Origin: Litorilituus sp.
GTDB lineage: Bacteria; Pseudomonadota; Gammaproteobacteria; Enterobacterales; Alteromonadaceae
NCBI GenBank assembly: GCA_030754235.1
Contig: JASMAS010000092.1
Span: 1 to 32,898, forward strand
Reading direction: 5' to 3'
DNA: 32,898 bases
Position numbers and translations under genes: made by a program. Below are positions 13,381 to 32,250 of this stretch, piece by piece. The notes under the pieces are model-generated. The model ran no database searches, had not been told where the DNA came from, and saw nothing but the letters and a program-made list of their open reading frames with translations. The stretch's first letter is position 1; each line of letters begins with the position of its first letter.

Positions 13381-13429
13381 AGTCCAAATAGTCTGCTTAT
13401 TAGTCCTCTCTATCGTATTTAACTTGTAT
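13381..13429 (+). promoter_or_regulatory. AGTCC direct-repeat operator/promoter of the GH3 gene
   Basis: AGTCC occurs at 13381-13385 and again at 13402-13406, a period of exactly 21 bp, with an extra AGTC at 13390. The proximal copy is followed by exactly 17 bp and then TTGTAT (13424-13429), a -35-like box. The same arrangement stands upstream of three other glucan-utilisation units in the window. It is a candidate binding site for the LytTR regulator encoded at 19001-19822. Confidence 0.65.
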
Positions 13430-13507
13430 CCTAAAATGGTCGTAATAACCTAACAATATTACTTTTTCTGAGATGTTAATAAAGATGAGATTGGATAAGA
13501 CAATAAT

Positions 13508-15313
13508 ATGCACTCAATACTTAACAAACCCGAAGTGAAAAAGATCGTTGATGAACTAATGTCGAAAATGACACTAGCTCAAAAGATTGGCCAAATGACA
13601 CAAGCCGAACGATTAAGCTGTACTCCAACTGAAGCAAGGCGCTACCATTTAGGTTCGGTTATGTGTTCAGCTAGCTCTGCACCCGATAAAAACACACTGC
13701 AACATTGGCTTGATATGGCAGATAGTTATTGGCTGTCCTCAACATCACAAGCTAAAGGCCACCAAGGGATTCCATTACTTTTTGGTATAGATGCTATTCA
13801 TGGTCATAGTAACCTCAAAGGGGCCACAATATTTCCACATAATATTGGTTTAGGTGCGGCGGATGATCCTGCCCTAATAAAAAAGATTGCCATCATTACT
13901 CGTCAAGAAGTTTTAGCAAGTGGTATTGATTGGATATTCGCTCCCAACCTTGCTGTTGCTCAAAACAATCATTGGGGACGATTTTATGAAAGCTTTTCAC
14001 AAACGCCAAGTATTGCAACTAAGTATGCAAGTAATATTATTTCAGGACTACAAAACAACGTTAAACACCAGGGGGTTGTTGCCTGTGTAAAGCACTGGAT
14101 TGGAGATGGCGCAACCTCTTACGGTATAGATCAAGGAAATGCAAAAATATCTTGGAATGAGTTAAACAACACCCATATTAGTCCGTATATTGCTGCGCTT
14201 AATTCAGGCGCTATGACCATCATGGCCTCATTTAGTAGTTGGAATGGCAGCAAATGTCATGGAGATAAGTTTCTGATCACTGATGTGTTGAAAAATCAAC
14301 TCCAATTTTCAGGTTTTGTTGTTTCCGATATGGACGGTATCGACTACCTTTCTGACGATTTTTATTTATCAGTTGCCCTGGGTGTTAATGCTGGTATTGA
14401 TATGTTTATGCTTTCGGGTAACTGGAAACAGTTTATTCGCCATTTGCATAGCCACATAGAACTGGGAACAGTCACACTTTCAAGAATAAATGATGCCGTA
14501 CGTAGGATTCTTTGTGTAAAGGTCGCCTGTGGCTTACTAGATGCACCTATGCCAAGTGAACGACCAGGCGCAAATCAACCAGATGTTAATTCGTTAAAAC
14601 ATAAAAACGTGGCTCGTGAAGCGGTACGAAAATCACTGGTTTTACTTAAAAACGAACATAAACTACTCCCGCTTAAGCACAATGCAAGAATATTAGTGAC
14701 CGGAAAAAACGCCAACAATATAGGTCATCAATGCGGCGGCTTTACGCTTGATTGGCAAGGAGTTTCAGGTAACCATGATTTTCCACAAGCAACTTCTATT
14801 TGGCAAGGTATTAAAGCCATTGCGCCTAATTCAGTATTAAAAGAAACACTCACTAATACAAAAGCAAAAGAGCATGATGTTGCTATCGTTATCATTGGTG
14901 AAACGCCTTATGCAGAAGGATTAGGTGATATTAGAAATGGAGATGACCTTTTTATTGAAGCAGGTTCGCAAATTAATGGGCAAATTAATGTCTCACAGCC
15001 CTATGCCAGCTCTACAGAATTAAACAAAATACACCCTGAAGACTTGTTAACCATCAAAAAACTTACCAGCTTAGGCATACCTGTTGTCGTCATTTTGATA
15101 TCGGGAAGAACACTGATCATTAATGCTGAACTTAAAGCCTCTAGTGCTTTTGTTGCTGCTTGGTTACCCGGTTCAGAAGGACAAGGAGTTAGCGATGTTT
15201 TATTTGGCAAATATAATTTTCAAGGAAAATTATCGTTTGAATGGCCAAAAACGACTGCGGAAAAATCATCAGTGTTATTCCCTTTAGGTTTCGGTTTACA
15301 CTACCCATCCTAA
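13508..15313 (+). CDS. GH3 beta-glucosidase/exo-beta-glucanase, no signal peptide
   Basis: Predicted to release glucose from the non-reducing end of beta-glucooligosaccharides. The 601-residue protein holds the GH3 N-terminal TIM barrel (about 1-340: FGIDAIHGH, CVKHWIGDG) with likely nucleophile D274 in SDMDGID, where most relatives have SDW. The C-terminal alpha/beta domain (about 370-600) contains GETPYAEGLGD, whose Glu is a plausible acid/base. There is no signal peptide or lipobox, so it should act in the cytoplasm, unlike larger secreted ExoP-type relatives of over 800 residues. It is separated from GH81 by a terminator and has its own AGTCC-type promoter. It ends 17 bp from the convergent phosphatase gene. 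Confidence 0.9.
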   Translation: MHSILNKPEVKKIVDELMSKMTLAQKIGQMTQAERLSCTPTEARRYHLGSVMCSASSAPDKNTLQHWLDMADSYWLSSTSQAKGHQGIPLLFGIDAIHGHSNLKGATIFPHNIGLGAADDPALIKKIAIITRQEVLASGIDWIFAPNLAVAQNNHWGRFYESFSQTPSIATKYASNIISGLQNNVKHQGVVACVKHWIGDGATSYGIDQGNAKISWNELNNTHISPYIAALNSGAMTIMASFSSWNGSKCHGDKFLITDVLKNQLQFSGFVVSDMDGIDYLSDDFYLSVALGVNAGIDMFMLSGNWKQFIRHLHSHIELGTVTLSRINDAVRRILCVKVACGLLDAPMPSERPGANQPDVNSLKHKNVAREAVRKSLVLLKNEHKLLPLKHNARILVTGKNANNIGHQCGGFTLDWQGVSGNHDFPQATSIWQGIKAIAPNSVLKETLTNTKAKEHDVAIVIIGETPYAEGLGDIRNGDDLFIEAGSQINGQINVSQPYASSTELNKIHPEDLLTIKKLTSLGIPVVVILISGRTLIINAELKASSAFVAAWLPGSEGQGVSDVLFGKYNFQGKLSFEWPKTTAEKSSVLFPLGFGLHYPS

Positions 15314-15330
15314 TACAAGTTAGTTACGCG

Positions 15331-15855
15331 CTACTTTGCCAGATAAAATACCTCAACTGAGTCGTCTAGCTTTCTGTTTAAATAGTCTATTTGCTTGTTA
15401 ATTTTCAGTGCTTTGGGTTTTAACCTTTGCACTTCGTGTTGAATTTTTAGTGCCGACCAGCCAAGCTGCAACAAAATTAAAGCAATGACAGTACCTGTTC
15501 TTCCGGTACCTCCTTTACAATGAACAGCCACCACACCTTTATTATTGATTTCTTCTAAAATAAGCGCTTTATTTAATACCCACTGTTGTTCAAAAGGGAC
15601 TTGTGGGGCCTCATCATCAACAATAGGAAGGTGTAGCCAAGTGATCTGCAGAGCGTTACATAGCGAAGGTAAGGTACTGATATTATTTGCCAACATTTCA
15701 CCCTCAAACATTAACGTAAGTAGCATAGACACTCCAGCGTGTTTGAGTTGCCCCATAGACTCGTCAAGCCCCACTGATTGGCTACCAGGGCAAGGAGTAA
15801 AAATTAATTTTGCTCCATTTGACAGGGTGAGTGTTTGAAAAGGATGATTAATCAC
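15331..15855 (-). CDS. Dual-specificity/tyrosine protein phosphatase-like
   Basis: A 174-residue cytoplasmic protein with the CX5R signature VHCKGGTGRTGT: C113 is the cysteine nucleophile and R119 the phosphate-binding arginine. LPIVDDEAP (D80/D81) supplies the likely general acid about 32 residues upstream. It resembles the CDKN3-like branch of the dual-specificity phosphatase superfamily. The start is GTG at 15855, preceded by GAGAG. It follows the GH30 gene by 65 bp on the same strand and may be its last operon member. The substrate is not evident; a phosphoprotein, a phosphosugar or another phosphoester is possible. Confidence 0.8.
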   Translation of the reverse strand: MINHPFQTLTLSNGAKLIFTPCPGSQSVGLDESMGQLKHAGVSMLLTLMFEGEMLANNISTLPSLCNALQITWLHLPIVDDEAPQVPFEQQWVLNKALILEEINNKGVVAVHCKGGTGRTGTVIALILLQLGWSALKIQHEVQRLKPKALKINKQIDYLNRKLDDSVEVFYLAK

Positions 15856-15920
15856 TAAATATTCTCTCGTAATACACTGAAATTAAGCGGCGGCACTTTA
15901 AGGCAGTTGCCTACTCATAA

Positions 15921-17621
15921 CTATAATTGCACTCTAATGGTTTTCAGCGCATTTGCCGGCATAGTCACCTCAACAAATTGTTCACCAATTTGTAATGAAA
16001 AGTTTATTGGCGCTTTAGTGGTATTTAATAGTTGCGTACTAACGATATTTTCTTGACTAATTGCTGAGCTAACATGTAAAGCGTCACTGTCTAAACCACT
16101 GAACTGGCTATCTACTTGTATTGCTTTATCACCGGGACGTATGGTGCGACTAAATTGTGATAACACATAATAAATCGGCGTGTAATACACTTCCCCAGTT
16201 TTGGTATCTATCATAATGGGGGCACCACAAAAGTTGCCGACATGGTTTGGACCCCCCTGACTATCTAGGACAATATTCCAGTCAATCCAACCTTCAAGCC
16301 AGTGATTTAAACTAACGATAATATTGCGGGCATATCGATGCACTGGAGTATAAATAGGGTGATCTTCTGGTTTAGGTGCCCATGTTGCCGTATATGCCCA
16401 ATCTGTGGCATTTTCACTCCACCAAAAATCATCGTTTTTGAACCAATTGGACTCTTTAAAACGTAAAGGATCTAGCACCCCTTCTGGCGCCTCTTTACCA
16501 AGATCATCAATAGTACCTTCGGTATGAATAATTGAAAAGTTTGGAAATTTTTCATGAACTCGTTCAAACACTTCTTCACTAACTTTTGTGGTGCTTTCAT
16601 ACCAATGTACCGCAGTACCATAAACATAAGCGGAAGTTTCGCTATCACCGAGTATCTCATCAGTCCAATCCTCCATGTGATCGCGATTTTGATCATAAAT
16701 AAGCAGTTTTACTGCCTGATGATTACTCGCTTTTAATTTAGGTCCTAAATACTGTTTAATAAATTGATTTTGCGTTTTTGGGGTAAAATGCATGCTTTCC
16801 CATTGACCACTATTGCCATTGGGTTCATTCACAGGCGTGAGCGCCCAAATATCAACACCGTGTGCCTTATAAGCATCAAGATATTTTATTAAGTAGTCCG
16901 CATAACTAGCAACGTATTCAGGCTTTAATTCTCCACCTGTGCCTTGATAGTTATTTTCAACGGTAGGATTAATATACCAATCTTCAATATTTTTCATCCA
17001 TGGCGGTGCTGTCCATGCTGATGCAACAATTCTTAAGTCTTTATCGGCTTGTTTATTTTTAATTGCGTAGGCTTCTTTGATCATAGGTAATAGATCAAAC
17101 TGCTCATCTTGAATGCCAGAGTATTGCTTTTGGCTAAAACCGTCTTCATCAACACTAATGCTAAAAGAGTTTAAATGAGTATCATCTTTGACCGGCGCAT
17201 ACGAAAATTTACCTTCAACCGCAAAGTCTGTCGCTGCAATAGTTGTGCGAGCAATAGAAAAATTAGCTCCTTTTTCGCCATAAATACTTTCCATGACCTC
17301 AGCTCTTTTTTCTTTGCTTAAATGAGCAAGTACAAACGCGGAAGATTCAGTAAACGAGCTGCCAATACCTAGAATATTTTGTTTAACAATATCTGGTTTG
17401 ATGGTAATCACCTGACCTTGCGCCTGACCTTCTTTAAAGGAAAGATTTGGCTTAGGTGATATTTTGTCACCCGATTCACTAGTAACAAGGATTTCTGTCG
17501 TTGTTGATAAATGATAATTCATACTGGTCATTTCGTTAGTCACTTGTGTTGTTTTTGTTTGAAATAGACAGCCACATAAAACAATAGAAGACATAACTCC
17601 TAAGATAGTTATTTTTTTCAT
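15921..17621 (-). CDS. GH30 glucanase lipoprotein, probable beta-1,6-glucan side-chain enzyme
   Basis: A 566-residue clan-A glycoside hydrolase. The signal ends in the lipobox LCGC (C18), so it is a lipoprotein. The catalytic barrel has the acid/base E266 in LTPVNEPNGN and the nucleophile E368 in IIHTEGT, the normal GH30 pair. A C-terminal beta-domain (about 470-566) completes the family fold. GH30 members in marine laminarin loci remove beta-1,6-linked glucose branches, and the neighbouring GH81, GH16 and GH17 genes fit that role, though glucosylceramidase-type specificity cannot be excluded by sequence. It lies 94 bp after the CBM9-like gene and is probably cotranscribed from that gene's promoter. 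Confidence 0.88.
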   Translation of the reverse strand: MKKITILGVMSSIVLCGCLFQTKTTQVTNEMTSMNYHLSTTTEILVTSESGDKISPKPNLSFKEGQAQGQVITIKPDIVKQNILGIGSSFTESSAFVLAHLSKEKRAEVMESIYGEKGANFSIARTTIAATDFAVEGKFSYAPVKDDTHLNSFSISVDEDGFSQKQYSGIQDEQFDLLPMIKEAYAIKNKQADKDLRIVASAWTAPPWMKNIEDWYINPTVENNYQGTGGELKPEYVASYADYLIKYLDAYKAHGVDIWALTPVNEPNGNSGQWESMHFTPKTQNQFIKQYLGPKLKASNHQAVKLLIYDQNRDHMEDWTDEILGDSETSAYVYGTAVHWYESTTKVSEEVFERVHEKFPNFSIIHTEGTIDDLGKEAPEGVLDPLRFKESNWFKNDDFWWSENATDWAYTATWAPKPEDHPIYTPVHRYARNIIVSLNHWLEGWIDWNIVLDSQGGPNHVGNFCGAPIMIDTKTGEVYYTPIYYVLSQFSRTIRPGDKAIQVDSQFSGLDSDALHVSSAISQENIVSTQLLNTTKAPINFSLQIGEQFVEVTMPANALKTIRVQL

Positions 17622-17715: not shown

Positions 17716-18483
17716 CTATTTAGCAAGAATTAATTTGCCAAATAAACCCGCATCTTTCCAACCACGATCTGGCTCCGGACCTGGAGCAGATTCAGAACCA
17801 ATAAAGTTTTCTCGTAATTCACTACCGTCGTTATCGCAATAGGCAACCATTAAGCCCATAATTTTTCCTGCAGATAATGTTATTGATTGATTATCTGTTA
17901 CTAAGTCTTGGTATTCATCAGTATAAATATCAATACTTAACTCCCAAATGACTTTGTCGTCTGCTTGCTTCCATTGACTTTCAACATGGTGAGAGTATGA
18001 GCGAGCTTGCTTGTCGGTTCCAATATCTATCGCTTGATTATCTAGCGAGAAATGATAGGCAAAAGCATTGTGATTAAATTGATGATCACCACCAGAAAAA
18101 TCTTCATCTATAAATATTTCTAAACAATCATCATCCCAATATTGGCTTAATGGATCTCTATGACTATCAATTAATATGTCATCAATAATTTCAGCCATTA
18201 AGTAAAGTTTGTTTTTAGTCCAAACAACTTTATAACGACCTTGAAAATCTTCTTTTGAATATTCAGGGCCTAACCAGCGATTATCCAATTGTTGCCACTT
18301 AGCCAATTGCCAAACACTTTCGTTGGCAACCCCATCTACTTTAGGAGCTTGGCTTGCGAATGGGGCATAATAGTGTGTTCTATCCTGATCATGACTATCA
18401 GCCGCATAAGTAGAGAATGTAAGCATTGCCCACAAAAATGTAACTCTTTTTAAAGCCGATAGTAACAATCTATTATTTGTCAT
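17716..18483 (-). CDS. Secreted CBM9-like carbohydrate-binding protein
   Basis: A 255-residue protein with a Sec signal peptide (cleavage probably after STYA) followed by one CBM9-like beta-sandwich: APKVDGVANESVWQLAKW, YKVVWTKNKLYLMAEIIDD and DDDCLEIFIDED are typical of this domain. No catalytic module is attached, so it likely binds glucan or oligosaccharides in the periplasm or at the surface. It is first in a unit with the GH30 gene and has a promoter of the AGTCC-N17-TTGTCT type. CBM9 domains usually bind chain ends of glucans; the ligand here is inferred from the neighbours. Confidence 0.82.
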   Translation of the reverse strand: MTNNRLLLSALKRVTFLWAMLTFSTYAADSHDQDRTHYYAPFASQAPKVDGVANESVWQLAKWQQLDNRWLGPEYSKEDFQGRYKVVWTKNKLYLMAEIIDDILIDSHRDPLSQYWDDDCLEIFIDEDFSGGDHQFNHNAFAYHFSLDNQAIDIGTDKQARSYSHHVESQWKQADDKVIWELSIDIYTDEYQDLVTDNQSITLSAGKIMGLMVAYCDNDGSELRENFIGSESAPGPEPDRGWKDAGLFGKLILAK

Positions 18484-18584: not shown

Positions 18585-18637
18585 AGACAAGATCATTGCG
18601 CTAAAATGGACTGATATCGCGATAAAAAGGAACTGAT
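18585..18637 (-). promoter_or_regulatory. AGTCC direct-repeat operator/promoter of the CBM9-GH30 unit
   Basis: On the minus strand ATCAGTTCC (18629-18637) and ATCAGTCC (18608-18615) are direct repeats 21-22 bp apart. AGTCC of the proximal copy is followed by exactly 17 bp and then TTGTCT (18585-18590) as a -35-like box. No strong -10 is evident. The distal copy fits the LytTR consensus best of all copies. Confidence 0.6.
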
Positions 18638-19000: not shown

Positions 19001-19822
19001 TTACATGTCAGTTAAAAAGTTTTTAATCACCTCTCGGTAATTACGACTAACTTTAACTTGATCATACTCTCCCAGTTTAAGGAAAAACTCACCTTTAGTA
19101 TGAGGAATAACTTTTTGGATATAATTAAGATTGACTATGGTAGAGCGATGAATACGTTTGAACATTTTAGGATCTAACTCTTCTAACAATTTTTTTAGGG
19201 TGCACCGTTTTATATGGGTTACACCTTGCGCATGAAGACAGACATAATCGCCTGCGGCATCAATCCACTCAATGTTTGCTTGCTTTAATAGGGTAATATC
19301 ATCACGATCCTTAATGACAATTTTACGTTCAATATTCGGGAGCGTTTGCTTTTTTACACTCGTTTCTGGTGCTGGCGGATAGTGTTTAGTTTCTCTTTCA
19401 TTAATCGTATCGATAGCACTGATAATTCGAGATTTATTTAATGCATCTTCATCTGCTTCAAAACGTACTAAAGCCCGTTGAATTGCTCGTTCAATTCGCT
19501 CTTCATCAATGGGTTTAAGAATATAGTCTACTGCATGCACATCAAAAGCATCCAAGGCATACTGTTCAAATGCCGTGGTAAAAATGACCATAGGAACAAT
19601 ATCAGACTGCAGCTTTTTTATCACGCCAAAACCATCGACACCTGGCATTTGTATATCTAAAAAAATTAAATCAGGCGATAAATCCATGGTTTTTTCAATA
19701 GCTTCACGGCCATTTTTGCATTCAGCAATAATCTCAACTTCAGAAATTTTATTTAACTTCGCCCGTAAAAAATTAAGCGCTAATGGCTCGTCATCAACAA
19801 TGATTGTTCTTAGTTTCGTCAT
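19001..19822 (-). CDS. LytTR-family response regulator
   Basis: A 273-residue two-component regulator. Residues 1-120 are a receiver domain with the acidic pocket D10/D11, phospho-acceptor D56 in LIFLDIQMPG and the conserved K in YILKPIDEE. After a linker, residues about 165-273 form a LytTR DNA-binding domain (IEWIDAAGDYVCLH, FKRIHRSTIVNLNYI, VSRNYREVIK). LytTR proteins bind pairs of about 9-bp direct repeats roughly 21 bp apart. It starts 4 bp after the kinase stop, so the two form an operon. It sits in the middle of the glucan region and is the natural candidate to act on the AGTCC repeats, which is inference. Confidence 0.93.
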   Translation of the reverse strand: MTKLRTIIVDDEPLALNFLRAKLNKISEVEIIAECKNGREAIEKTMDLSPDLIFLDIQMPGVDGFGVIKKLQSDIVPMVIFTTAFEQYALDAFDVHAVDYILKPIDEERIERAIQRALVRFEADEDALNKSRIISAIDTINERETKHYPPAPETSVKKQTLPNIERKIVIKDRDDITLLKQANIEWIDAAGDYVCLHAQGVTHIKRCTLKKLLEELDPKMFKRIHRSTIVNLNYIQKVIPHTKGEFFLKLGEYDQVKVSRNYREVIKNFLTDM

Positions 19823-19826
19823 AAGT

Positions 19827-21005
19827 CTAACTAGCCTTGATGGTGTGATATGCTTGATTAACTATATCAGCTTCATCATTGTTTTCTATAGGTAATTTAA
19901 TTGTAGTTTTTAAACCGCCAGAAGGTTTAACATTAAGATGAAAGGTATAATCATCTCCATAAAGCACTTTAAGTCGGTCATCAATATTACGTAAGCCGAC
20001 TCCCCTAGCTGTTTTGCTCTTAATTTTATTTCCATCGATAGGCTTGCCTGACCCCGTATCACTTAATTCAAGCACCAACATATTATCAATGATATTTGCC
20101 CTTAAACTAATTGTGCCTCCGGCCTCATTTTTAGCAATAACATGCTTCATCGAGTTTTCAATAATAGGCTGCAATAGTAAGCTAGGAATTAAAGCCGACT
20201 CCGCACCTTGCGAGACGAGAAAGTCAATTTGTAGCCGCTCTCCAAAACGTGTTTTTTCTATTTCTAAGTACAGGTTTAATGCTTTTATTTCAAATACTAA
20301 GGCCATTTTAGCATCAGGGTTGTTATCTAATGAATAACGTAAAAATTTACTTAATTGAACGGTCATTTGTTGTGCTTTTTCTGACTGTTCACATTCTATT
20401 AAGGAATTAATGGCATTGAGGGTATTACAAAGAAAATGAGGGTTTAACTGATATCGAAGCATTTTTATTTTAGCATCTCTAGCAACAGATTGTGCACTCA
20501 ACCTTTTCAGTTGCTCTGCTTTTGCTTCCTCTTGCTTTTTAAGCATGATTTCATGTTCAAATTGCAACAGTTGATAATATCGAATCCCGTGGAAAAACCC
20601 CGCCCAACACAAATAGATAAAAATACTACTAAAATACCAGCCGCCAAAATCCTCCCAAAGAGTTTCTGTTGCGATTAATTCTATGTAGAGCTCTACTCTA
20701 ATAACGCTCCAGATAAAAGAAACCAATAAGACTGAAGCAATACTAATTAATGCTCGGGTAAAAATAGGCTTATTCCAGTAGCGCATAAATACCCAATACA
20801 ACGGCAAGGTAAAGACGATGCCAACGACTGACTGTAAAAGCGTATGATTAAGGTGTGCGACATCGATTTGTGCATACCACAGGGTCAACGAAATAAGGCT
20901 AATTAACGAAACTAAAGACCAGAAGCAGATTTGTAAAAACCAGAATAAATAAACAGGGTTTTCTGAAAGGGAGTTAATTTTTTGTTGTAAAAAGTGTTCA
21001 GACAT
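19827..21005 (-). CDS. LytS/YehU-type membrane sensor histidine kinase
   Basis: A 392-residue kinase partnering the LytTR regulator. Four hydrophobic helices occupy about residues 18-45, 57-75, 84-105 and 123-143. A coiled coil precedes the His_kinase domain, where LNPHFLCNTLNAINSL carries the phospho-acceptor His (residue 190; the usual F of HFLFN is C). The ATPase boxes QPIIENSMKH, DTGSG and GVGLRNIDDRL follow. There is no large periplasmic or Cache domain, so the signal must be sensed in or near the membrane or through a partner. The frame begins at 21023, but AGGGGG directly before ATG 21005 favours the shorter start. Confidence 0.92.
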   Translation of the reverse strand: MSEHFLQQKINSLSENPVYLFWFLQICFWSLVSLISLISLTLWYAQIDVAHLNHTLLQSVVGIVFTLPLYWVFMRYWNKPIFTRALISIASVLLVSFIWSVIRVELYIELIATETLWEDFGGWYFSSIFIYLCWAGFFHGIRYYQLLQFEHEIMLKKQEEAKAEQLKRLSAQSVARDAKIKMLRYQLNPHFLCNTLNAINSLIECEQSEKAQQMTVQLSKFLRYSLDNNPDAKMALVFEIKALNLYLEIEKTRFGERLQIDFLVSQGAESALIPSLLLQPIIENSMKHVIAKNEAGGTISLRANIIDNMLVLELSDTGSGKPIDGNKIKSKTARGVGLRNIDDRLKVLYGDDYTFHLNVKPSGGLKTTIKLPIENNDEADIVNQAYHTIKAS

Positions 21006-21175
21006 AGCGCCCCCTGAAATCATTACTTATGATATTACAACTTCTTAGCAAAATATTACAGCCTATTAGCGCGAGTATTGAAAGTAAAGCTTCATTCATA
21101 ATGTACACCTTCTTGCGCATTAAGCTCAAATAGGTACTTTCTTCGTAACGGCTAACCTAATCCGTTTTTAAGTAC

Positions 21176-21209: not shown

Positions 21210-21235
21210 GGTGTCGTTTAAACAACATAAAAAAA

Positions 21236-22228
21236 CTAGCCGACAGATTCGTTAGGCTCCATCGCTATGACCGTATCAGGATAAATATCTTTCATGACTA
21301 ATTTTGGTTTGCGATCAACCTTAAATAATCCCCAATGTTTTTCTGGCTCAAGCGGGTCGGGAGAGCCCTTCCACGGCTCATCAAATGCTTCAAAAACAAA
21401 GGTTAATATTTTTTCTTCTGTGGTCCAAGCCAGTAATTGCTCATAATAATGCGCTTGTAGATCTTCGTTAGCATTCCATGGTTCTATGCCGCGACCATTA
21501 GAGGCCGTAGTCCAACCAGCTTCAGTGATAATAACGGGCTTGTCAGGGTAATGCTGTGCCACTGAATAATAATTTTGCTTGGTATATTCAAGGGCATCTT
21601 CCATGGTTCTATATTCCCATGCCGGATAGGTATGAATAGAAATAAAGTCTAATACCTCAACCAAAGGTTCTAATTTATAAGTCCAAGGCACATAGTTCTC
21701 ACAAAAGGTAACGGGTTGTTTAATTTCCTTTTTAATTTGCATAACATAGTTGACCAACCTTTCAACAGGCACCATATGATCTGTCCAGTCAACACTTGCT
21801 TCGTTACCAACAGAAACAGAAAAAATAATCTCGTCATACTGTTGTGCTAAGCGAATCATCTTATGTATTTCATCACAGTTATGCTGCCTATTGGCACTGA
21901 TAGTTTCTTCACTAAAATCAGCCCCCCAAGGACAGTGTGGATTACTCATTTCTGCAGCAATATCAACACCTAACATCACTTTAAAGTGTAGTTTTTCAGT
22001 TCTGATAACCTCTAAGACCAACTCAGCATGAGGGCCACTGTCATAGATTCTCAAGTAGTTCCAGTTTTTTGCTAAGATCAGTAAGTCTTCTTTTACCTCA
22101 TCATAGCTAGGGTAAATGCCCTCGCGTGGGTTTTGTCCCTCTCGGTAACCTGAATAACAAATAGCATTAGCATGGCTTAAATTCATAGCGCTTATACTAG
22201 CCACTTTATCACTGTGATTTTTAAACAT
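21236..22228 (-). CDS. GH17 family protein, cytoplasmic (second of pair)
   Basis: A 330-residue TIM-barrel enzyme of glycoside hydrolase family 17, whose members hydrolyse or transfer beta-1,3-glucan chains. The acid/base E143 is in VGNEA and the nucleophile E236 in IITEAGW, both expected for the family; LRIYDSG and ISIHTYPAWE are further barrel landmarks. No signal peptide is present, so it acts in the cytoplasm. The start codon overlaps the end of the preceding GH17 gene by 8 bp, which implies translational coupling. It is clearly diverged from its partner, so the two probably have different cleavage or transfer specificities. Confidence 0.88.
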   Translation of the reverse strand: MFKNHSDKVASISAMNLSHANAICYSGYREGQNPREGIYPSYDEVKEDLLILAKNWNYLRIYDSGPHAELVLEVIRTEKLHFKVMLGVDIAAEMSNPHCPWGADFSEETISANRQHNCDEIHKMIRLAQQYDEIIFSVSVGNEASVDWTDHMVPVERLVNYVMQIKKEIKQPVTFCENYVPWTYKLEPLVEVLDFISIHTYPAWEYRTMEDALEYTKQNYYSVAQHYPDKPVIITEAGWTTASNGRGIEPWNANEDLQAHYYEQLLAWTTEEKILTFVFEAFDEPWKGSPDPLEPEKHWGLFKVDRKPKLVMKDIYPDTVIAMEPNESVG

Positions 22229-23108
22229 ATTTTAATTTACCGTCTTTATCCCATAATCCCCAATAAGCACCAACATCTCCCTCGTCAGCAATTTTCCACT
22301 CTTCATCAAATGATGAAAAGTAGAATACTTCTATACCTTCTTCTTCTGCCCACAAGTACGTATCAATAAAATACCTTAATGCATTTTCATAGGAAGGAAT
22401 TGCTCCACCCTCTGTGCTGCCAAGGTTTGGCCAGCCAGTTTCGGTAATAATGACTCTTTTGCCTTTAGCTGCTTTGATTGCTCTACGGTACATATCTTTC
22501 ATGTATAGCAACGCGTATTCAGCAGGACAGCCTTCCCAAAATGGATAACAGTTCGATAAAATAACATCACAAGCATCAGCAATACGCGGGTGATCTTCAA
22601 ATTCATAATAGGCATCAACATAACCTACTTCAACGTCAGGTAGAGCATCTTTAGCTCGAGCAATATAACCAAGCAACTGCTCTTCGGTTAAATCTTCACG
22701 AAGCAGTACTTCATTACCCACGGCTAAAATGTCAACATGACCTGCTTTGGCTACGTTAATTGCATTTTCAAGCTCTTTTTCATTATTTTCTAAATCATTA
22801 TCTAACCAAACACCAACCATGGTATTTAAGCCATTTTCTTTGGAAATTTTCGGAATTTGCTCATTGCCTTGCGTACAGGAAAATGACCTAACCCAATTAA
22901 TATTGCTTTTAATAATATTTAATCGCGCTTGAATTTGCTCTGCGCTAATTTGTGTGCCGGGCCCTTGGCCTTCAATATAGGGGCTAAAGGATATCCCATG
23001 TATTTTTTCAGCTAAAATATTGCCAGCCATGGCACGTAAATAATCTGTTGACTGAGATGAAAAATTGATCCCCGCTAACGACATATATTTATTATATTTA
23101 CTCGACAC
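22221..23108 (-). CDS. GH17 family protein, cytoplasmic (first of pair)
   Basis: A 295-residue GH17 protein beginning MSSKYNKYMSLAGINFSS with no export signal. Family landmarks are ISFSPYIEGQGPG, VRSFSC, LAVGNEVLL with acid/base E133, SNCYPFWEG, and VIITETGWPNLGS with nucleophile E223. It starts with GTG at 23108, supported by CAGGAG 6 bp upstream. It follows the GH149-like phosphorylase gene by 57 bp and overlaps the next GH17 gene by 8 bp, forming a GH149-GH17-GH17 operon. It is likely to trim or rearrange imported beta-1,3-glucooligosaccharides before phosphorolysis. Confidence 0.88.
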   Translation of the reverse strand: MSSKYNKYMSLAGINFSSQSTDYLRAMAGNILAEKIHGISFSPYIEGQGPGTQISAEQIQARLNIIKSNINWVRSFSCTQGNEQIPKISKENGLNTMVGVWLDNDLENNEKELENAINVAKAGHVDILAVGNEVLLREDLTEEQLLGYIARAKDALPDVEVGYVDAYYEFEDHPRIADACDVILSNCYPFWEGCPAEYALLYMKDMYRRAIKAAKGKRVIITETGWPNLGSTEGGAIPSYENALRYFIDTYLWAEEEGIEVFYFSSFDEEWKIADEGDVGAYWGLWDKDGKLKYV

Positions 23109-23164: not shown

Positions 23165-26100
23165 TTATTCCGCAAAAAGTTGCTCTTTGTTTAACAGCAC
23201 ATTAATTTGACGAATACGGCCATTGCGCAAAAACAAGTTTGAACTTTCTTTTGCCGATAGGGCTAATTCAGTCAAAACTACTTCGCTACCATCATCCAAT
23301 GTGATGGTTAGCAACGTTTCATTGCTCTGGATTAATTGGTAAACAATAGGCACCTGACACCAAGTAAAGCCAAGGCTTGATTGAGGTAAGATGATTTCTT
23401 GCCAGTTATTGTCAATGTCGACATAACTAAAAGGGGCAGGACTGTCTAAAAATTCGCAAGCTCTCAGTAAATGAGTTTGGAACTTAACTACACCTGCTTG
23501 CACTCTGATCCCCAGCTCACCAAATCGAGAGAGCACTTCCTCTTTCACTTGACCTGTCATACCCGGTTGCTGCGCACCGGCATGTTTTGGTGTGTGTGAG
23601 TATGGATCTGCGGGAAATGCGCCATATTCTTCTGGGGTTTTATTAAAACCAAGTCCTTGACGCACACGGTAATATAATTGACCAAGGCGGTGACAGGTTT
23701 TTTCATCTTCACCATTGTCTATTGCGCTAAAGAAGTTCTCTTCAACCGCTAATAATAACTTGGCAACCATGTGCCAGTAGATACAACCTAAGCCTTCAAA
23801 GCCAAACATGCCACCAGAGCGGCCTGTAAACTCCTGATGGTTAAACACTTCTTCATATAAAGCTAATAATGGTTGTTTAGCCACTTCAACTAAGTCACCG
23901 TAAACACTGGTTAAGTCTTCTAGTTGGGCAGTAAGTACATCGGCATTGGTTATGTCGGCATTAAAGCGGAAAATGCCATCAGCATCTTGCAACATAACAC
24001 TATCGTCTTGCTCTGCAAGCATGCGTGTTAATAATGCTATCGCTTGTACTTTATCGCTAGGCACACAGTTTTTCTGTAAAAAGCTTGGTAGCTCTCTATC
24101 AGGGTAAAGCATAAAGGTGTTTTGATCTTCACGGTAAACATCACTAGCAAACAATGACTCAAGCACTGAAATAACCTTTTCAGAGCTAAAAGCACCAGAG
24201 CTAAGTGCCGCAACTTGACCTTCTAACATAGGGTAGAGTTCGCTTAGCGTTAAGTTTTCCTGCTCAAAAGAAAGCAAGTTATAGGCATTGTAGAGTTTGT
24301 CTTGGCGCTCATTACTTGTAATAGTATGCTCAATGGCGGCTAAGGCATCATCGAGCATCAGTTTAACTTGCTCAATTGGTTGAGCCACTTTTCCTGAAAA
24401 TGCTTCGTTAAGATAAACACTCTCACGGTAACGGCTTGATGCTTGACCTAATTCACGTAAACAGTTAAAACGCGCTTTTGCTGTAATAGGTCCTTTATTT
24501 AATAATGATCTTATATGACTTAGCGCTCTAGCGGTATCTGCTAACCATATATTCACTTCGCTTGACATAAGTGTTGATTCGGTTTCCTTGGCGAGTAACG
24601 CTTGTAAAAATGAAACATAGCGACGCAAATAATACAAAGTCACAACCGAAACACCTTGGCCAACCAAGGCATTATTGGCATCGTTCCATTCTGGGCGTTG
24701 AGTATTTAACCAAATACCACCATCAACCACCAAATTACCTAGTTTAGCAAGTAGCGGTACAATTAATTTCTCTAATAAGTTTACTTGATATACTTCATTG
24801 TTATTATCAAGAATTAGCTTGCCATCTGCACCCATACTAAGGACACGTTGCTCAAGACGAAATGCCGATTCTTCATCATAGCTCACCGTATCTTTTGCAT
24901 TTTTCACTAAATCATTAAATGACTTAATGCGATAAGGTACATTTGCATAGCTAAATAATGGCTGACGTAATAACTCTGTTAATTTTTCTGGGTGGAATTT
25001 ATTGGATAACTCTAATAACTTCTGTAAGTAGATAATCTGGTGATCACCCCAATAACCAATATAACTCCAAGGATCATCAGGCTCTTCAACTTCCCAATCG
25101 ATACCTTCTTTCGTTATACGGTAAGGGTTGTAACCGTCAATAGTTGAGGCATTGACAAATTTTGCAATCACGCTTTCAACAAACGATGGGTAACTAAATG
25201 TTAACGCTTCCCAATTTTGAAAAATATCACGCCAGTTACCTTGATAGGTTAACAAGCTATTGTTCTTTTCATCTTTTAGTTTAATAGCAAACTGGTTCCA
25301 AGGGCGGCTTGGATCACCGTGTCGACGGCCAAAAAATATCGGTAAATATTCATTACAAAGTCGCTCTAACTGCTGATCTTTTTCTCTTTGAACTAATAAA
25401 AGCAGGTCTGCTAATGCTAATGATTTGGGTAATTGTTTAAAGAATGCCTGATGACGACAATAAACGTCATGATTAAATTGCTTAACAGTATTTGAAAAGT
25501 CTTGTGATGATATTTGATAATGATTATCAAAAGCACCGCCACGTAAGACATTAAATTGCACGTTGGCATAATGGTGTAGCGCCACGTCTTCTTCAGCAGT
25601 TACTTGGAACGCGTCGGCACTAGCCATAATACGCGCAAGTTCATCACTACCTGTTGCAATTGAACTTTCAATATTTTCAACTAAAACAGCCTGTTGGGCA
25701 AGTTGGCTTCGTAATTTCGTCGCTTGGTTTTGAGTTTGCTCAACGTTAGTAACAAATTGCCATGCTTGAGTGTCTTGTGGAGCAAGTTCAATGGTTGAAT
25801 TCACTAAAAAAGCACCCCGAATACCACGCTTGTGTGTTTCTTGAGCCAGTACTTTTCCTAGACGAAATTTTTCTAATTGCTCTGAAGATAGCAGTATTTT
25901 AGATTGCTCAAGACCTAAACAAAAAGCGGTATTAGTTTTCAATGACTCACAAGGCTCGGCTTTATCAGTGATACCAGAATACAGTGTAAAAAATACTAAG
26001 CCAGACGTTTCATCTAACTCAGTTTTTTTGTAAGCATCAACCAAATTGCTAGAATTTGCTTGTGTATATCTAGGTGTACCTGCAGGCAAGATATTTTGAA

Positions 26101-26614
26101 AGCCATCAATCAATTCAATATTTTTGTTTTTATCAGACAAATTCTCTAATGCACATTGGCGGACAAAACCATACTCATCACTTGTCGCCCATGTATAGTT
26201 ATATTTAAGCTGAAGATCATGGTTAATTTCTTCAAAGCAAAGCTTATTTCCTAACAGGTTTTTATATAAATTACGGCTAATATGATAATGTTTATCCTGT
26301 TCACGATTGAACGGTTCCCAATGAGATTGTTGTCCATCAACCTCAACGCGCAACAAAGTCTTGCAACCCGTATGAAGATCACTTTCATGAATTCTATCAA
26401 CAGTGACATAGGGAAATAACGCCGTTTCTGGTGACACACGCCCTGCTGTTAATCCACCCGTTGATGAGACAAATAACCAGTGATCACTATTGGAGACCAC
26501 ACTAATAAAAAATGACGACATTTTATCAACATTGTTGATGGCATAAAATCGCTCATTTCCTAACATAATAAACTCACCAGTCACTTGGTTGTTGCTTGTA
26601 TTACTGTTTTTCAT
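23165..26614 (-). CDS. Beta-1,3-glucan phosphorylase-like (GH149 type)
   Basis: A 1149-residue soluble protein with no signal peptide. It has the GH94-like plan: an N-terminal beta-sandwich (FFISVVSNSDHWLFVSSTGGLTAGRV), an alpha-helical linker, and an (alpha/alpha)6 barrel with NPYRITKEGIDW, GYWGDHQIIYLQKLLE and RPEWNDANNALVG. D645 in EWND is in the place of the general-acid Asp of GH94 phosphorylases. The length matches GH149 and GH161 beta-1,3-glucan phosphorylases rather than the shorter GH94 enzymes; GH149 is my preferred call. Such enzymes release glucose-1-phosphate from beta-1,3-oligoglucans. It lies between GH16 and two GH17 genes, with no AGTCC operator directly in front, so it is probably read from the GH16 promoter. 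Confidence 0.7.
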   Translation of the reverse strand: MKNSNTSNNQVTGEFIMLGNERFYAINNVDKMSSFFISVVSNSDHWLFVSSTGGLTAGRVSPETALFPYVTVDRIHESDLHTGCKTLLRVEVDGQQSHWEPFNREQDKHYHISRNLYKNLLGNKLCFEEINHDLQLKYNYTWATSDEYGFVRQCALENLSDKNKNIELIDGFQNILPAGTPRYTQANSSNLVDAYKKTELDETSGLVFFTLYSGITDKAEPCESLKTNTAFCLGLEQSKILLSSEQLEKFRLGKVLAQETHKRGIRGAFLVNSTIELAPQDTQAWQFVTNVEQTQNQATKLRSQLAQQAVLVENIESSIATGSDELARIMASADAFQVTAEEDVALHHYANVQFNVLRGGAFDNHYQISSQDFSNTVKQFNHDVYCRHQAFFKQLPKSLALADLLLLVQREKDQQLERLCNEYLPIFFGRRHGDPSRPWNQFAIKLKDEKNNSLLTYQGNWRDIFQNWEALTFSYPSFVESVIAKFVNASTIDGYNPYRITKEGIDWEVEEPDDPWSYIGYWGDHQIIYLQKLLELSNKFHPEKLTELLRQPLFSYANVPYRIKSFNDLVKNAKDTVSYDEESAFRLEQRVLSMGADGKLILDNNNEVYQVNLLEKLIVPLLAKLGNLVVDGGIWLNTQRPEWNDANNALVGQGVSVVTLYYLRRYVSFLQALLAKETESTLMSSEVNIWLADTARALSHIRSLLNKGPITAKARFNCLRELGQASSRYRESVYLNEAFSGKVAQPIEQVKLMLDDALAAIEHTITSNERQDKLYNAYNLLSFEQENLTLSELYPMLEGQVAALSSGAFSSEKVISVLESLFASDVYREDQNTFMLYPDRELPSFLQKNCVPSDKVQAIALLTRMLAEQDDSVMLQDADGIFRFNADITNADVLTAQLEDLTSVYGDLVEVAKQPLLALYEEVFNHQEFTGRSGGMFGFEGLGCIYWHMVAKLLLAVEENFFSAIDNGEDEKTCHRLGQLYYRVRQGLGFNKTPEEYGAFPADPYSHTPKHAGAQQPGMTGQVKEEVLSRFGELGIRVQAGVVKFQTHLLRACEFLDSPAPFSYVDIDNNWQEIILPQSSLGFTWCQVPIVYQLIQSNETLLTITLDDGSEVVLTELALSAKESSNLFLRNGRIRQINVLLNKEQLFAE

Positions 26615-26705: not shown

Positions 26706-28145
26706 CTATTTAATTAAAGGTTTAAAAATTCTTACGTAATCAATTTCCATTGAAACAGGAAACATATTGTCATCTATGGGACCACCAGCACGTCCCCACA
26801 TACCACCAATGGCGAGATTAAGAATGATGTGATAGGGCTGGTCATATGGCCAGGTTTTCCAGCCTGTTGACTCATTTTGATAAAAGAAATAAGGGGTTTC
26901 ATCAAAAAATATGATGATATGCTCAGGTGTCCACTCAATTGAATATACGTGAAACAATTCCTCAACATTTTGGCCTTCGATACTTGCTTTTCTTTGCTCC
27001 CAAGTCTTCCAGTAATAAGCTTTATTGTGCACCGTACCATGAATGGTTTGCATATCGTATCCAACATGCTCCATAAGGTCTATTTCACCTGAGTTTGGCC
27101 ATGCATCACAGGTTGGGCTGCCTTGCCAATCTTCACCTGATTGACACGAAGTAGCATAGGTAAAAGGGTTACTTGGTAACATCCAAATGGCCGCCCATGT
27201 ACCTTGTCCAGCGGGCAGTTTAGCTCTGACTTCAGCTCTACCATATAAAAAATCGCCTTTCCCTTGGGAATGAAGCCTTCCAGAGGTGTATTTAGCATCA
27301 TCAACATCTTCTTTATAAGCCGTGATCACTAAGTTACCCTCTTTAACTTGTACGTTTTTAAGGCTATCGGTATAGGCTTGATCTTCACCATTTACTTTTC
27401 TAGCAGGCCAAATATCGTAGCTCCACTTAGTGGAATCGGGTTTACCTTGATAATTAAATTCATCACTCCAGACAAGCTGCCAATTCTGATGCGATTCAGG
27501 TACTGTAGTGGTATGCGTCTGTCTAACAATGACGGCACTTAAAATGCCTTCACCTTTTGATGCTTTTAGTGCAAGTTTTAGTTGACCATCAGTGACTTCA
27601 ACACCATGCACGGTACGTACTAAAGCTGACTTATGTTTACCATCTCGGGCTAACCTTACATCAAGATCATCAATGACTAATTGGCCCTGGGCAAAAACAT
27701 CAAAAACTCGCTGACCCACTTTAATATCTTCTGGCTCAGCAAACTTTAAAATAATCTCATAACGACCATTTTCAATGGGATGATTTATTGATAAGTCACC
27801 TAAACGATATGACTGAAACAAAGTACTATCTTGAGAACCTTTAATAATATCTATGGTGTACTTATTTTCACCTAATTCGAGGTGATCAGCTTGATAGGTA
27901 ATGCCATCAACGCCCTGATAACTCTCACCACCTACATTTACCGCCCAAACAATATGTTGATTAAATGGATGTAAAACCGCCACTTTATCTATCTGATGCT
28001 CTTTAACGCTTACAGCATTAGTCGTCTTGTCAGCTTCGGCTAAAGAGATTGTCTCGGCTTCATCTACATTACAAGCACATAGACTAAAGATGAGACTAAC
28101 AAGTAATAAAGTAGGTTTATATGGAACTCCTTTTATCATTTTCAT
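26706..28145 (-). CDS. GH16 laminarinase lipoprotein with malectin domain
   Basis: A 479-residue endo-beta-1,3-glucanase. The signal ends in LCAC (C25), so it is lipid-anchored. Residues about 62-210 form a malectin-like carbohydrate-binding domain (WAVNVGGESYQGVDGITYQAD, FAEPED, FDVFAQG). Residues about 222-479 are GH16, with the catalytic signature GEIDLMEHVG: nucleophile E354, D356 and acid/base E359. WSDEF and WPYDQPYHIILNLAIGG are also typical of laminarinases. Expected role: surface or periplasmic cleavage of laminarin. A promoter with AGTCC-N17-TTGTCA and a good -10 lies upstream. The GH149 gene follows after 91 bp in the same direction. Confidence 0.94.
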   Translation of the reverse strand: MKMIKGVPYKPTLLLVSLIFSLCACNVDEAETISLAEADKTTNAVSVKEHQIDKVAVLHPFNQHIVWAVNVGGESYQGVDGITYQADHLELGENKYTIDIIKGSQDSTLFQSYRLGDLSINHPIENGRYEIILKFAEPEDIKVGQRVFDVFAQGQLVIDDLDVRLARDGKHKSALVRTVHGVEVTDGQLKLALKASKGEGILSAVIVRQTHTTTVPESHQNWQLVWSDEFNYQGKPDSTKWSYDIWPARKVNGEDQAYTDSLKNVQVKEGNLVITAYKEDVDDAKYTSGRLHSQGKGDFLYGRAEVRAKLPAGQGTWAAIWMLPSNPFTYATSCQSGEDWQGSPTCDAWPNSGEIDLMEHVGYDMQTIHGTVHNKAYYWKTWEQRKASIEGQNVEELFHVYSIEWTPEHIIIFFDETPYFFYQNESTGWKTWPYDQPYHIILNLAIGGMWGRAGGPIDDNMFPVSMEIDYVRIFKPLIK

Positions 28146-28215
28146 CGAATATTTACCCTCTCATCACTATCAAATAGACAATAACTTGCTATTTGGCTTG
28201 TTATATTTTTTCCTA

Positions 28216-28288
28216 ACAATAAAGTAGCTTGAAATAATGACAATTAAAACGAGCTAAGACGGACTATACATGCGGTAAATACGACTAT
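28216..28288 (-). promoter_or_regulatory. AGTCC direct-repeat operator and promoter of the GH16-GH149-GH17 unit
   Basis: On the minus strand ATAGTCG (28282-28288) and ATAGTCC (28261-28267) are direct repeats exactly 21 bp apart. AGTCC is followed by 17 bp, TTGTCA (28238-28243), a 16-bp spacer and TATTGT (28216-28221), a good sigma-70-like pair. It is very similar over 30 bp to the symporter promoter (TATAGTCCG ... AATTGTC). Confidence 0.7.
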
Positions 28289-28295
28289 CGATTAT

Positions 28296-29040
28296 TCATG
28301 GCGAAAAATCCTTTTGCTACTAATGACACTGCTTTTACTGCTTTCCCCATCAGCGTTATGTCGAATCCTCATCAATGTTACCATCACATCACAAACAAAA
28401 ATCCTTGAGGATCTTAATATTTTACTAGACCATAATTTAAACTTAATCTGCCTCTATTATTCGCTCGAGAACTCGGCATGATAATATCGCTAAAGCTAGA
28501 CAAGCAGCACTTGAGACGATAATTAAGCAGAACATAACAGATAATGTAATTATCAACCAAATCTTCCCTATGTTTTGGAAATCAACCATTATCCATGAAA
28601 GATTCCCTCTTATTACAAAGCGTTACCCTAAAACAGGTGTCTATTGGTGTGCCAGTGATCAAATGGCGCTTGAAATACTCAAAGAACATCAAGCAACGGG
28701 AACTCACCCCGTCATTATCGGCGGATTTGACTGGCTGCCAGAGGCACTAAAAAAAATAAAAAGTAAAGAGTTATCTGCCTCAGCAGGAGGTCATTTTTTA
28801 ATGGCAACGCATGCTCTTATTAAAATTGTAGACTACCACCAAGGTATCGATCGTTTCTTTACTCCGCCACGCATGCTGCAGTTTGAGATCATTAGCGCAA
28901 AGAATGTAGATAAGTTTCTACCTTTTATAGAAGGCAAACACTGGTATAAAATAGATTTCAGCAATTATTTATTTTCTAAAGCCAGTAAAGATAAGCCACA
29001 GTTAACTTTTGAAAATATGGTAGCTAGCATAAAAAAATAA
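28296..29040 (+). pseudogene. Decayed periplasmic sugar-binding protein
   Basis: The C-terminal part is open from about 28460 to 29040 and reads VYWCASDQMALEIL, VIIGGFDWLPEALKKI and SAGGHFLMATHALIKI, which match the last lobe of ABC-type sugar-binding/PBP1-like proteins. Upstream in another frame a signal-peptide-like LLLLMTLLLLLSPSALC is visible, followed by about 40 codons and a stop at about 28481. The gene therefore has a frameshift, lacks a credible start codon and has lost about 100 or more residues compared with the usual 330-360. It points opposite to its neighbours, between the GH16 promoter and the CotH stop. It was probably once a sugar sensor or transporter subunit. Confidence 0.7.
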
Positions 29041-29135
29041 ACATTTTGTTTTATAACTTATCAATAATAATCGCGAATAACATCCACAGAACATGATATT
29101 TACTCATGAAAAATAGCGATCGACGCCTAATTATA

Positions 29136-30725: not shown

Positions 30726-30773
30726 TTGAGCTTACCTATCTTTGTTTTCGTTTAAAAAATTCATAAAAAACGG

Positions 30774-32105
30774 TTAAAGTGAGACCTTGTTATTGAGTGC
30801 CAAGTGTATCTGTTCAACTTTTTGTTTATCGAGAATATACCAGCGCATCACCCAAGCAACCAGGATAGAACCAAAGGCAGGAAAAATGGTAAATGATATT
30901 AATATCCCCTGTTTAGCCGTTTGTGTTTGTTCCACGTCAGCTTGGTAGCCATAATAGGCTAATAGCCAGCCCGCAAAAGCGCCGCCAAAGGCAACACCTA
31001 GCTTAATAAAAAAGACGATAGCAGAATAGATCATACCTGTAATGCGTATGCCATTTTTCCAATGACCATAATCTATGGTATCAGCCATTTTAGCCCATAA
31101 TAACGGTGTTGCCATTTGTAAAAAGAAACTCCACAGAAAAAATAGGACAAAGGCGATAACCACCTGTTCTTTAGGAACAAAATAACTAATAACACAGATG
31201 AATGCGGCAATGAGTTGTAAGCTAATATAGGCCTTGATCTTACACACTCTTTTAGCAACAAATTGCGCTAAGGCACACCCGATAATACTGCCAATCATGC
31301 CAAGGGTGATAAACAGGGTTATTTGTTCTTCAAGATCCAAAACATATTTAACATAGTAAATGGCTAATGTTGCCCTTAACACTTGTCCTGTCAGTAAAAA
31401 CAACCCCGCAAGACATAATATTCGCCACTGATCGTTTTGCCAAAGCGATGATAAGTCTTCAACCAAGGAGGTTTTTTGTTCTTTTGGCGCACAAACACGC
31501 TCTTTGGTTCCGAAAAAGCATAACAAAAACATCACTAAGCCTAAAAGACTCATGGCTACCATGGTTAGTTGGTAACCCCTAGCTTTGTCACCATGACCAA
31601 AAAACTCCACTAATGGTAATGTTCCTGAAGCAACTATTAAGCCCCCTAACATACCCAAAACAAAGCGATATGACTGTACAGAAACTCGCTCAGATGGTTG
31701 CGCCGTTAAAACCCCACCTAAGGCAGAGTAAGGGATATTAATGGCGGTATAAGCAATCATGAGTAAGGTGTAAGTCACAAAGGCATAAATCACTTTACCG
31801 TTATAGGATAAATCAGGGGTAGTGAAGGCCATCATAGAAATAATGGCAAATGGCACTGCCAACCACAGCAAATAAGGTCTAAACTGACCAAAACGTGTTT
31901 TAGTTCGATCGGCAAGTGCTCCCATTAGCGGATCAGTTATCGCATCAAACAAACGTACAACTAAAAACAAGGTACCTACAACGGCTGGTGAAATACCGAC
32001 AACATCAGTATAAAAAAGAAGTAAGAACATCATTACCGTTTGGAAAATAATATTACTGGCGGTATCACCTAAGCCATAAGCTATTTTTTCACGAATGGAT
32101 AACAT
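30774..32105 (-). CDS. GPH-family (MFS) glycoside cation symporter
   Basis: A 443-residue inner-membrane transporter with about 12 hydrophobic helices. The N-terminal half has the GPH signature DAITDPLMGALADRTKTRFGQFRPYLLW, and GLGDTASNIIFQTVMMFLLLFYTD is the usual first helix. GPH transporters (MelB, LacS types) import glycosides with sodium or protons. Together with cytoplasmic GH17, GH3 and phosphorylase genes, the likely cargo is short beta-1,3-glucooligosaccharides. It is the first gene of a unit with CotH and is preceded by an AGTCC-N17-TTGTCT promoter. No outer-membrane partner is in the window. Confidence 0.92.
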   Translation of the reverse strand: MLSIREKIAYGLGDTASNIIFQTVMMFLLLFYTDVVGISPAVVGTLFLVVRLFDAITDPLMGALADRTKTRFGQFRPYLLWLAVPFAIISMMAFTTPDLSYNGKVIYAFVTYTLLMIAYTAINIPYSALGGVLTAQPSERVSVQSYRFVLGMLGGLIVASGTLPLVEFFGHGDKARGYQLTMVAMSLLGLVMFLLCFFGTKERVCAPKEQKTSLVEDLSSLWQNDQWRILCLAGLFLLTGQVLRATLAIYYVKYVLDLEEQITLFITLGMIGSIIGCALAQFVAKRVCKIKAYISLQLIAAFICVISYFVPKEQVVIAFVLFFLWSFFLQMATPLLWAKMADTIDYGHWKNGIRITGMIYSAIVFFIKLGVAFGGAFAGWLLAYYGYQADVEQTQTAKQGILISFTIFPAFGSILVAWVMRWYILDKQKVEQIHLALNNKVSL

Positions 32106-32188
32106 AAAACCTCGTTTATTATTTTTATTTAATGACTTTAAAAGACAGCTAAATATCTAATGGGATGTGGGTATTGATTATCAGTTAA

Positions 32189-32250
32189 ACAATCATAAAC
32201 AGACCACATAAGACAATTTAAATAAGGCAAAGCGGACTATAGTTGAGACT
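32189..32250 (-). promoter_or_regulatory. AGTCC operator and promoter of the symporter-CotH unit
   Basis: On the minus strand TATAGTCCG (AGTCC at 32234-32238) is followed by 17 bp, TTGTCT (32211-32216), a 16-bp spacer and GATTGT (32189-32194). An AGTC lies 12 bp upstream (32247-32250), as also in front of GH3. At 21 bp upstream only AATCG is found, a weak match. Confidence 0.6.

Follow-up and report, generated by a model that had tools for sequence, protein, structure and literature searches.

The DNA analysed here, a contig of 32,898 nucleotides from Litorilituus sp. (JASMAS010000092.1, assembly GCA_030754235.1; contig C92 of a genome of 3,325,531 bases in 112 contigs; hereafter the window), encodes a group of beta-glucan enzymes and raises the question of whether their promoters are controlled jointly, and by what. 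An earlier note on this DNA had proposed that four of these promoters share the pattern AGTCC-N17-TTGT and answer to one regulator. We found six sites of a longer element, a head-to-tail double repeat, and predict with a probability of about 0.8 that they are the operators of one laminarin (beta-1,3/1,6-glucan) regulon under the histidine kinase and the LytTR-type response regulator encoded at 19001-21023. The sites precede genes for glycoside hydrolases (GH), a carbohydrate-binding module (CBM) protein and a symporter, and are listed with their scores in the relatives-only model described below:

9463-9498, + strand: site 1, upstream of GH81; units 9463-9477 and 9484-9498; no TTG at the -35 position; 24.6 bits, E 6.6e-5
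13382-13417, + strand: site 2, upstream of GH3; units 13382-13396 and 13403-13417; -35 TTGTAT at 13424-13429; 15.1 bits, E 0.07
18597-18632, - strand: site 3, before CBM9-GH30; units 18632-18618 and 18611-18597; -35 TTGTCT at 18590-18585; 29.8 bits, E 1.5e-6
28250-28285, - strand: site 4, before GH16; units 28285-28271 and 28264-28250; -35 TTGTCA at 28243-28238; -10 TATTGT at 28221-28216; 36.9 bits, E 8.6e-9
32223-32258, - strand: site 5, before the symporter; units 32258-32244 and 32237-32223; -35 TTGTCT at 32216-32211; -10 GATTGT at 32194-32189; 33.0 bits, E 1.4e-7
32468-32503, + strand: site 6, before a divergent GH16-like lipoprotein; units 32468-32482 and 32489-32503; 17.7 bits, E 0.011

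Downstream of the six sites, in this order, lie GH81, GH3, CBM9-GH30, GH16-GH149-GH17, the sugar symporter and the GH16-like lipoprotein gene. The hit position of site 1 (9483) is 79 base pairs (bp) ahead of the GH81 ATG.

To define the element, we returned to the pattern itself. The window holds four exact copies of AGTCC-N17-TTGT and no more, all at the stated places (13402 on the + strand; 18612, 28265 and 32238 on the - strand, counted from the A of AGTCC), but the count of four sites was too low: one ahead of GH81 (9483, +) and one ahead of the divergent lipoprotein (32488, +) have to be added. The GH16 and symporter sites are identical at 21 of 30 positions and both carry (T/G)ATTGT at a 16-bp spacing, as noted earlier. 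A second AGTC-like copy does lie upstream of the first before GH3, GH30 and GH16; its reported 22-bp spacing at GH30, however, was an effect of register, and the period is 21 once the copies are aligned on TCC and CGC, in agreement with a period scan. The extra AGTC described 12 bp upstream at GH3 and the symporter is part of the first repeat unit, in its 3' half.

We found that AGTCC opens a 15-bp unit, GTCCnnTTTAnCGCA, which is present in two head-to-tail copies 21 bp apart. The consensus of 63 aligned sites from relatives, GTCCnnTTTAnCGCAnnnnnAGTCCnCTTTAnCGnATTT, shows the same unit twice with the same period. When 365 strong single-unit matches were scanned, the best second unit lay exactly 21 bp upstream in 92 and at the next most frequent distance in 3; most of the 365 had no second unit, and the single-unit matrix was itself derived from 21-bp sites. 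TTG was found at +22 in 73 of 123 non-redundant sites (59%), compared with at most 20% at other offsets from +14 to +39, and an A2/T6 -10 pattern at +44 in 68% of these 73, where no other offset from +28 to +61 exceeded 27%; the 123 sites were chosen on both repeats, but the matrix used had TTGT-bearing sites as its seed and extended over the -10, which builds in part of the enrichment at -35 and -10. These two enrichments indicate that TTGT is the -35 hexamer, followed by the -10 after a 16-bp spacer; in the 73 TTG-bearing sites the downstream unit ends 6 bp ahead of it. The remaining 50 of the 123 sites have no TTG at +22, so TTGT belongs to the promoter, and we rejected AGTCC-N17-TTGT as the element. 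Judged from sequence, the element is the double repeat of 21-bp period plus the -35, which accounts for the earlier sub-observations, including the extra AGTC, and supports the proposal of one promoter architecture common to the beta-glucan genes. That a single protein binds all of the sites is what we infer.

Furthermore, we assessed how far the sites stand out from the rest of the genome. Nine exact matches to AGTCC-N17-TTGT occur genome-wide, four of them in the 33-kb window. The rate elsewhere gives an expectation of 0.05 for the window (P(>=4) 2.5e-7), and a reversed-pattern control, with 30 matches genome-wide, gives 0.30 (P(>=4) 2.6e-4). Since the pattern was picked after the window had been seen, a model built from relatives is the better test. 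This model, R1, was made from 63 relatives' sites with zero window sequence, and was used to score 150 of the 710 first-look candidates in the genome, a scope that holds for all of its ranks given here. Its six best hits all fall in the window (28265, 32238, 18612, 9483, 32488 and 13402; E 8.6e-9 to 0.07), with site 4 scoring highest, and the next two hits have E 0.27 and 0.58. None of the five exact matches outside the window was among the eight own-genome hits of R1. The pattern and model searches thus agree that the genome elsewhere is not similarly dense in such sites. With the stricter filters of the family search and E<=0.01, four of the six window sites pass. One of the hits outside the window (C24:38206, 12.3 bits) lies inside a coding frame and was taken as chance. 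Another (G000 C29:39325, L127 2326-2377; 13.3 bits, E 0.27) has an MFS_2 symporter gene 113 bp downstream and a TonB receptor nearby on the opposite strand, and may be a further member of the regulon.

The element is also kept in related species, as the proposal of a shared regulon had called for. The closest orthologs of the regulator are found in Colwellia, at no more than 85% identity, and 53 of the 80 returned ortholog loci (L004-L056) together with the window gave 54 loci. Exact AGTCC-N17-TTGT matches number 21 in L001-L064, including the window's own one in L002, and the similarity among the relatives' exact sites extends far beyond the pattern. An iterated matrix over the ortholog loci returned 108 hits, 105 of them intergenic, and the reversed matrix returned one. 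Leave-one-locus-out matrices, whose training sites came from a search over every locus, gave 101 hits of at least 16 bits in the 54 loci and at least one hit in 47 of them; dinucleotide shuffles averaged 0.2 hits, and a single hit came from the 26 loci of distant LytTR proteins (L057-L083, L071 excepted).

A same-strand gene begins within 400 bp (median 120 bp) of 98 of the 108 sites; the other ten have their gene more than 400 bp away (4), run off the locus end (3) or lie within frames (3). The downstream genes encode GH16 (33), GH149 (13), Sugar_tr transporters (12), GH3 (10), CBM9 (7) and smaller classes, among them four PEP-CTERM proteins and one kinase, with two unassigned; this tally is descriptive, as its exemplars were drawn from genes beside sites. 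Sites were also found away from the regulator, in 12 fetched stretches that lie on a contig without it or, in L144, about 0.9 Mb from it (in draft genomes a separate contig may still be close by). We identified the neighbours in eight of these stretches, leaving out L130, L131, L137 and L138. The neighbouring genes there encode GH3 (L134, L142, L143, L144), malectin-GH16 (L133), GH16 and CBM9 (L143), GH81 (L141), a CBM4 protein together with a TonB receptor (L135) and, with unclear relevance, a beta-lactamase-like protein (L139).

To ask which regulator the element accompanies, we compared 295 genomes of the family for the motif, the regulator, GH149 and GH16. Of the 58 genomes with the regulator, 47 have the motif at E<=1e-3, against 0 of 237 regulator-less ones (Fisher 2e-44, overstated as the genomes are kin), and at E<=0.01 the counts are 52/58 and 16/237. 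The regulator cut of E<=1e-80 was chosen once a gap from 2.1e-80 to 9.1e-75 had become visible. One genome (G009) was recounted as regulator-bearing, 16,702 bases of its contig being identical to L035, with a 64% identical copy of the regulator; without this move the counts at E<=1e-3 are 46/57 and 1/238. Homologues of GH16 (E<=1e-20, counted by hand) occur in 56/58 regulator-bearing genomes and in 161/237 others, so having some GH16 does not by itself bring the motif. This control is valid for distant GH16 enzymes only, because the 29 close malectin-GH16 relatives (at least 52% identity, E<=1e-160, the window's included) are all in regulator-bearing genomes. Eleven genomes have the regulator but no GH149, and the motif is kept in three of them at E<=1e-3 and in six at E<=0.01.

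The kinase gene itself has a site in the 400 bp ahead of it, at a distance of 63-201 bp, in 21 of 53 loci, where 2.2 were expected. Twenty of these sites point away from the kinase, 12 of them to a divergent Sugar_tr transporter, and the one in L016 points toward it; three (L004, L011, L035) face no gene within 400 bp. Since relatives with the same sensor-regulator system carry the motif too, the LytTR pair is the likely switch.

Several observations weigh against this assignment. Sites 2 and 6 are weak by their E-values, and in the window the 400 bp ahead of the kinase gene contain no site. Eleven of the 58 regulator-bearing genomes have no motif at E<=1e-3, and six of these have none at E<=0.01 either, under the stricter filters. 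The 16 of 237 regulator-less genomes with a hit at E<=0.01 exceed the roughly two expected if the rough E-values hold; all of these hits have E 0.001-0.01 and are single per genome except for two in G142, and they could belong to a related LytTR paralogue. All 47 GH149 genomes also have the regulator, which leaves the two inseparable in that direction, and the co-occurrence is partly linkage, as the regulator sits in the cluster that it supposedly controls. The narrow GH16 control and the excess of weak hits without the regulator slightly lowered our confidence in the LytTR pair and slightly raised that in an AraC/XylS-type activator.

The geometry of these sites is also that of AraC/XylS-type activators, which use direct repeats with a 21-bp period beside the -35, their two blocks separated by roughly one turn of the helix. 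The two-block 15-bp unit described here would fit such a protein, encoded elsewhere, with the LytTR pair serving another job, and HTH_18, its domain, matches 1 to 47 times per genome in the 12 genomes searched. We consider this unlikely. No HTH_18 match was found in the window proteins scanned (frames of at least 120 amino acids), and among the matches listed (about 60 bits and above) one falls within about 11 kb of the cluster in only two of the 12 regulator-bearing genomes (G292, C31:149928; G130, C1:900684), while G283 has a single HTH_18 match overall, more than 1 Mb away. The motif instead tracks the LytTR protein, often at that protein's own operon. A reading in which the LytTR protein binds the sites as a repressor, with laminarin lifting the repression, appears improbable as well. 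LytTR proteins are able to repress, as described for PlnD in the available part of PMC2714321 and for AgrA at bsaA in that of PMC4227749, but the repeats here lie upstream of the -35 and off the promoter core, and the hexamers (TTGT.., TATTGT, 16-bp spacer) are as far from consensus as those of an activated promoter would be. Finally, chance or shared descent of promoter DNA, with no regulator at all, would gain from the short pattern having been chosen after the fact and from many relatives being close kin. This explanation is very improbable and already contradicted: the six top-scoring hits of a model free of window data crowd into 1% of the 3.33-Mb genome, the sites stand on both strands before unrelated genes and are almost absent from shuffled loci, and contigs without the regulator carry them before genes for GH3, GH81, GH16, CBM9 and a TonB receptor.

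We therefore return to the LytTR pair as the predicted regulator of the six operators. In the mechanism that we propose, a glucan-derived signal would alter the activity of the kinase, and the phosphorylated regulator would bind the two head-to-tail 15-bp units on the same face of the DNA. Bound there and touching RNA polymerase, it would activate GH81, GH3, CBM9-GH30, the presumed GH16-GH149-GH17 operon, the symporter and the second GH16-like gene. The position of the repeats, directly ahead of the -35, makes activation likelier than repression. More broadly, we lean toward the view that marine Gammaproteobacteria have in this two-component system a sensor-activator dedicated to laminarin, acting on scattered beta-glucan genes through one 36-bp double-repeat operator. 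The kinase may read a membrane-borne or transporter-coupled signal, since it has no recognised extracellular sensor domain.

The proteins of the window bear on both the regulator and its proposed targets:

9562-13296, + strand: GH81 protein with a lipoprotein-like start (Pfam Glyco_hydro81C)
13508-15313, + strand: GH3 glycosidase (Pfam)
15921-17621, - strand: GH30; nearest NCBIfam model endo-1,6-beta-glucanase, 181 bits, under its cut-off of 700
17716-18483, - strand: CBM9 protein, first gene past site 3 (Pfam)
19001-19822, - strand: response regulator with receiver and LytTR DNA-binding domains, the proposed regulator (Pfam Response_reg 8e-24, LytTR 8.6e-20)
19827-21023, - strand: sensor histidine kinase (His_kinase PF06580, 7.8e-25)
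21236-23108, - strand: two GH17 proteins, 21236-22228 and 22221-23108 (Pfam)
23165-26614, - strand: GH149 beta-1,3-glucan phosphorylase, 1149 amino acids (NCBIfam NF058639, 1739.5 bits, cut-off 1150; PDB 6hq6)
26706-28145, - strand: malectin-GH16 protein, first gene past site 4 (Pfam)
30774-32105, - strand: GPH-family sugar:cation symporter (Pfam MFS_2; TIGR00792 above cut-off)
32666-32898, + strand: start of a GH16-like lipoprotein, truncated by the contig end (translation; GH16 likeness by eye, VWNDEFDG)

We read this gene set as a laminarin utilization locus, because the GH149 equivalog, GH81, GH17, GH16, GH3 and GH30 occur together with the symporter. For GH81 the ATG at 9562 is likely the true start; the listed TTG at 9490 overlaps site 1. 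Both domains of the response regulator score above the Pfam cut-off. Its best NCBIfam match is BtsR (NF008677) at 155.8 bits, below the cut-off of 246, and we did not assign it to BtsR. By script the kinase shows three hydrophobic segments, to which inspection by eye may add a fourth; no sensor domain was recognised in it, and Pfam gave no match to 5TMR-LYT or GAF. The available part of PMC10653868 describes the 5TMR-LYT input domain as common to all LytS-like kinases; the kinase was therefore not assigned to the LytS type, despite its His_kinase part.

The window also encodes a CotH protein (Pfam/NCBIfam) and a dual-specificity-phosphatase-like protein (15331-15855, - strand), which comes after GH30 in several Colwellia loci. 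A 156-amino-acid frame at 28570-29040 (+ strand), divergent from GH16, resembles only the C-terminal part of Peripla_BP_4, below the cut-off, and is possibly a remnant. The 540-amino-acid frame at 3575-5197 (+ strand) has zero Pfam matches at E<=0.01. Among the relatives, two complete double-repeat sites lie 51 bp apart before a PEP-CTERM protein (L010 11070/11121, L009 11108/11159). In a relative of the same genus (L146 11065-19034) the cluster adds a tryptophan-halogenase-like protein, Cupin_8 and SapC, and a TonB receptor adjoins the symporter. A 3363-amino-acid protein with GH81, GH16, CBM56 and CBM4 domains is encoded beside the regulator in L145 (3676-13767). L145-L147 (G292) and L010 are probably one genome.

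Laminarin ranks among the most abundant polysaccharides of the sea. With a named regulator, an explicit operator and predicted targets, the sensing and switching of its degradation become directly testable, and in Alteromonadaceae-type genomes the operator can serve as a sequence tag to find laminarin genes that lie outside the main cluster. A full-text search of a collection of open-licence papers returned none with both LytTR and laminarin, and no LytTR-type laminarin regulator appeared among the papers listed by further searches there. We read the system as a new regulon, for laminarin, of a known regulator type.

How does it compare with known systems? AraC/XylS-type sites likewise lie near the -35 as direct repeats with a period of 21 bp, but a gene of that type lies near the cluster in only 2/12 genomes among the matches listed. 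The BtsS/BtsR system of Gammaproteobacteria is likewise a kinase-regulator pair, and BtsR is the best NCBIfam match; the system here differs in its score below the cut-off, in a kinase without 5TMR-LYT or GAF matches and in its glucan-gene neighbours. Marine laminarin polysaccharide utilization loci have GH16, GH17, GH3, GH30, GH149 and a transporter in common with the window. Among LytTR regulators, HdrR and BrsR have membrane partners rather than kinases. One Alteromonadaceae laminarin locus has glpR as its regulator, according to the accessible text of PMC12844025, in place of the LytTR pair found here. A LytTR regulator is encoded in a gut Firmicute arabinoxylan locus in the portion seen of PMC5320581, so LytTR beside glycan genes is not unheard of. 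LytTR proteins are described in the sections available of PMC4847170 as binding two repeats of 9-11 nucleotides with a spacer of 11-13, YpdB at GGCATTTCAT-N11-GGCATTTCAT with a 21-bp period, and in those of PMC6193735 the S. mutans repeats stand 4-11 bp ahead of the -35, with a bias to 10 bp seen more generally. The sites described here share the period of about 21 and the position a few bp upstream of the -35, with a repeat unit longer than published. As far as those sources go, YpdB, AgrA and HdrR/BrsR likewise pair a LytTR protein with two direct repeats, at a 21-bp period (YpdB) or separated by 12 bp, immediately ahead of the -35. In contrast to them, the sites here have a longer conserved unit of 15 bp (15 + 6 bp) and another sequence, and belong to a predicted many-promoter regulon for polysaccharide use.

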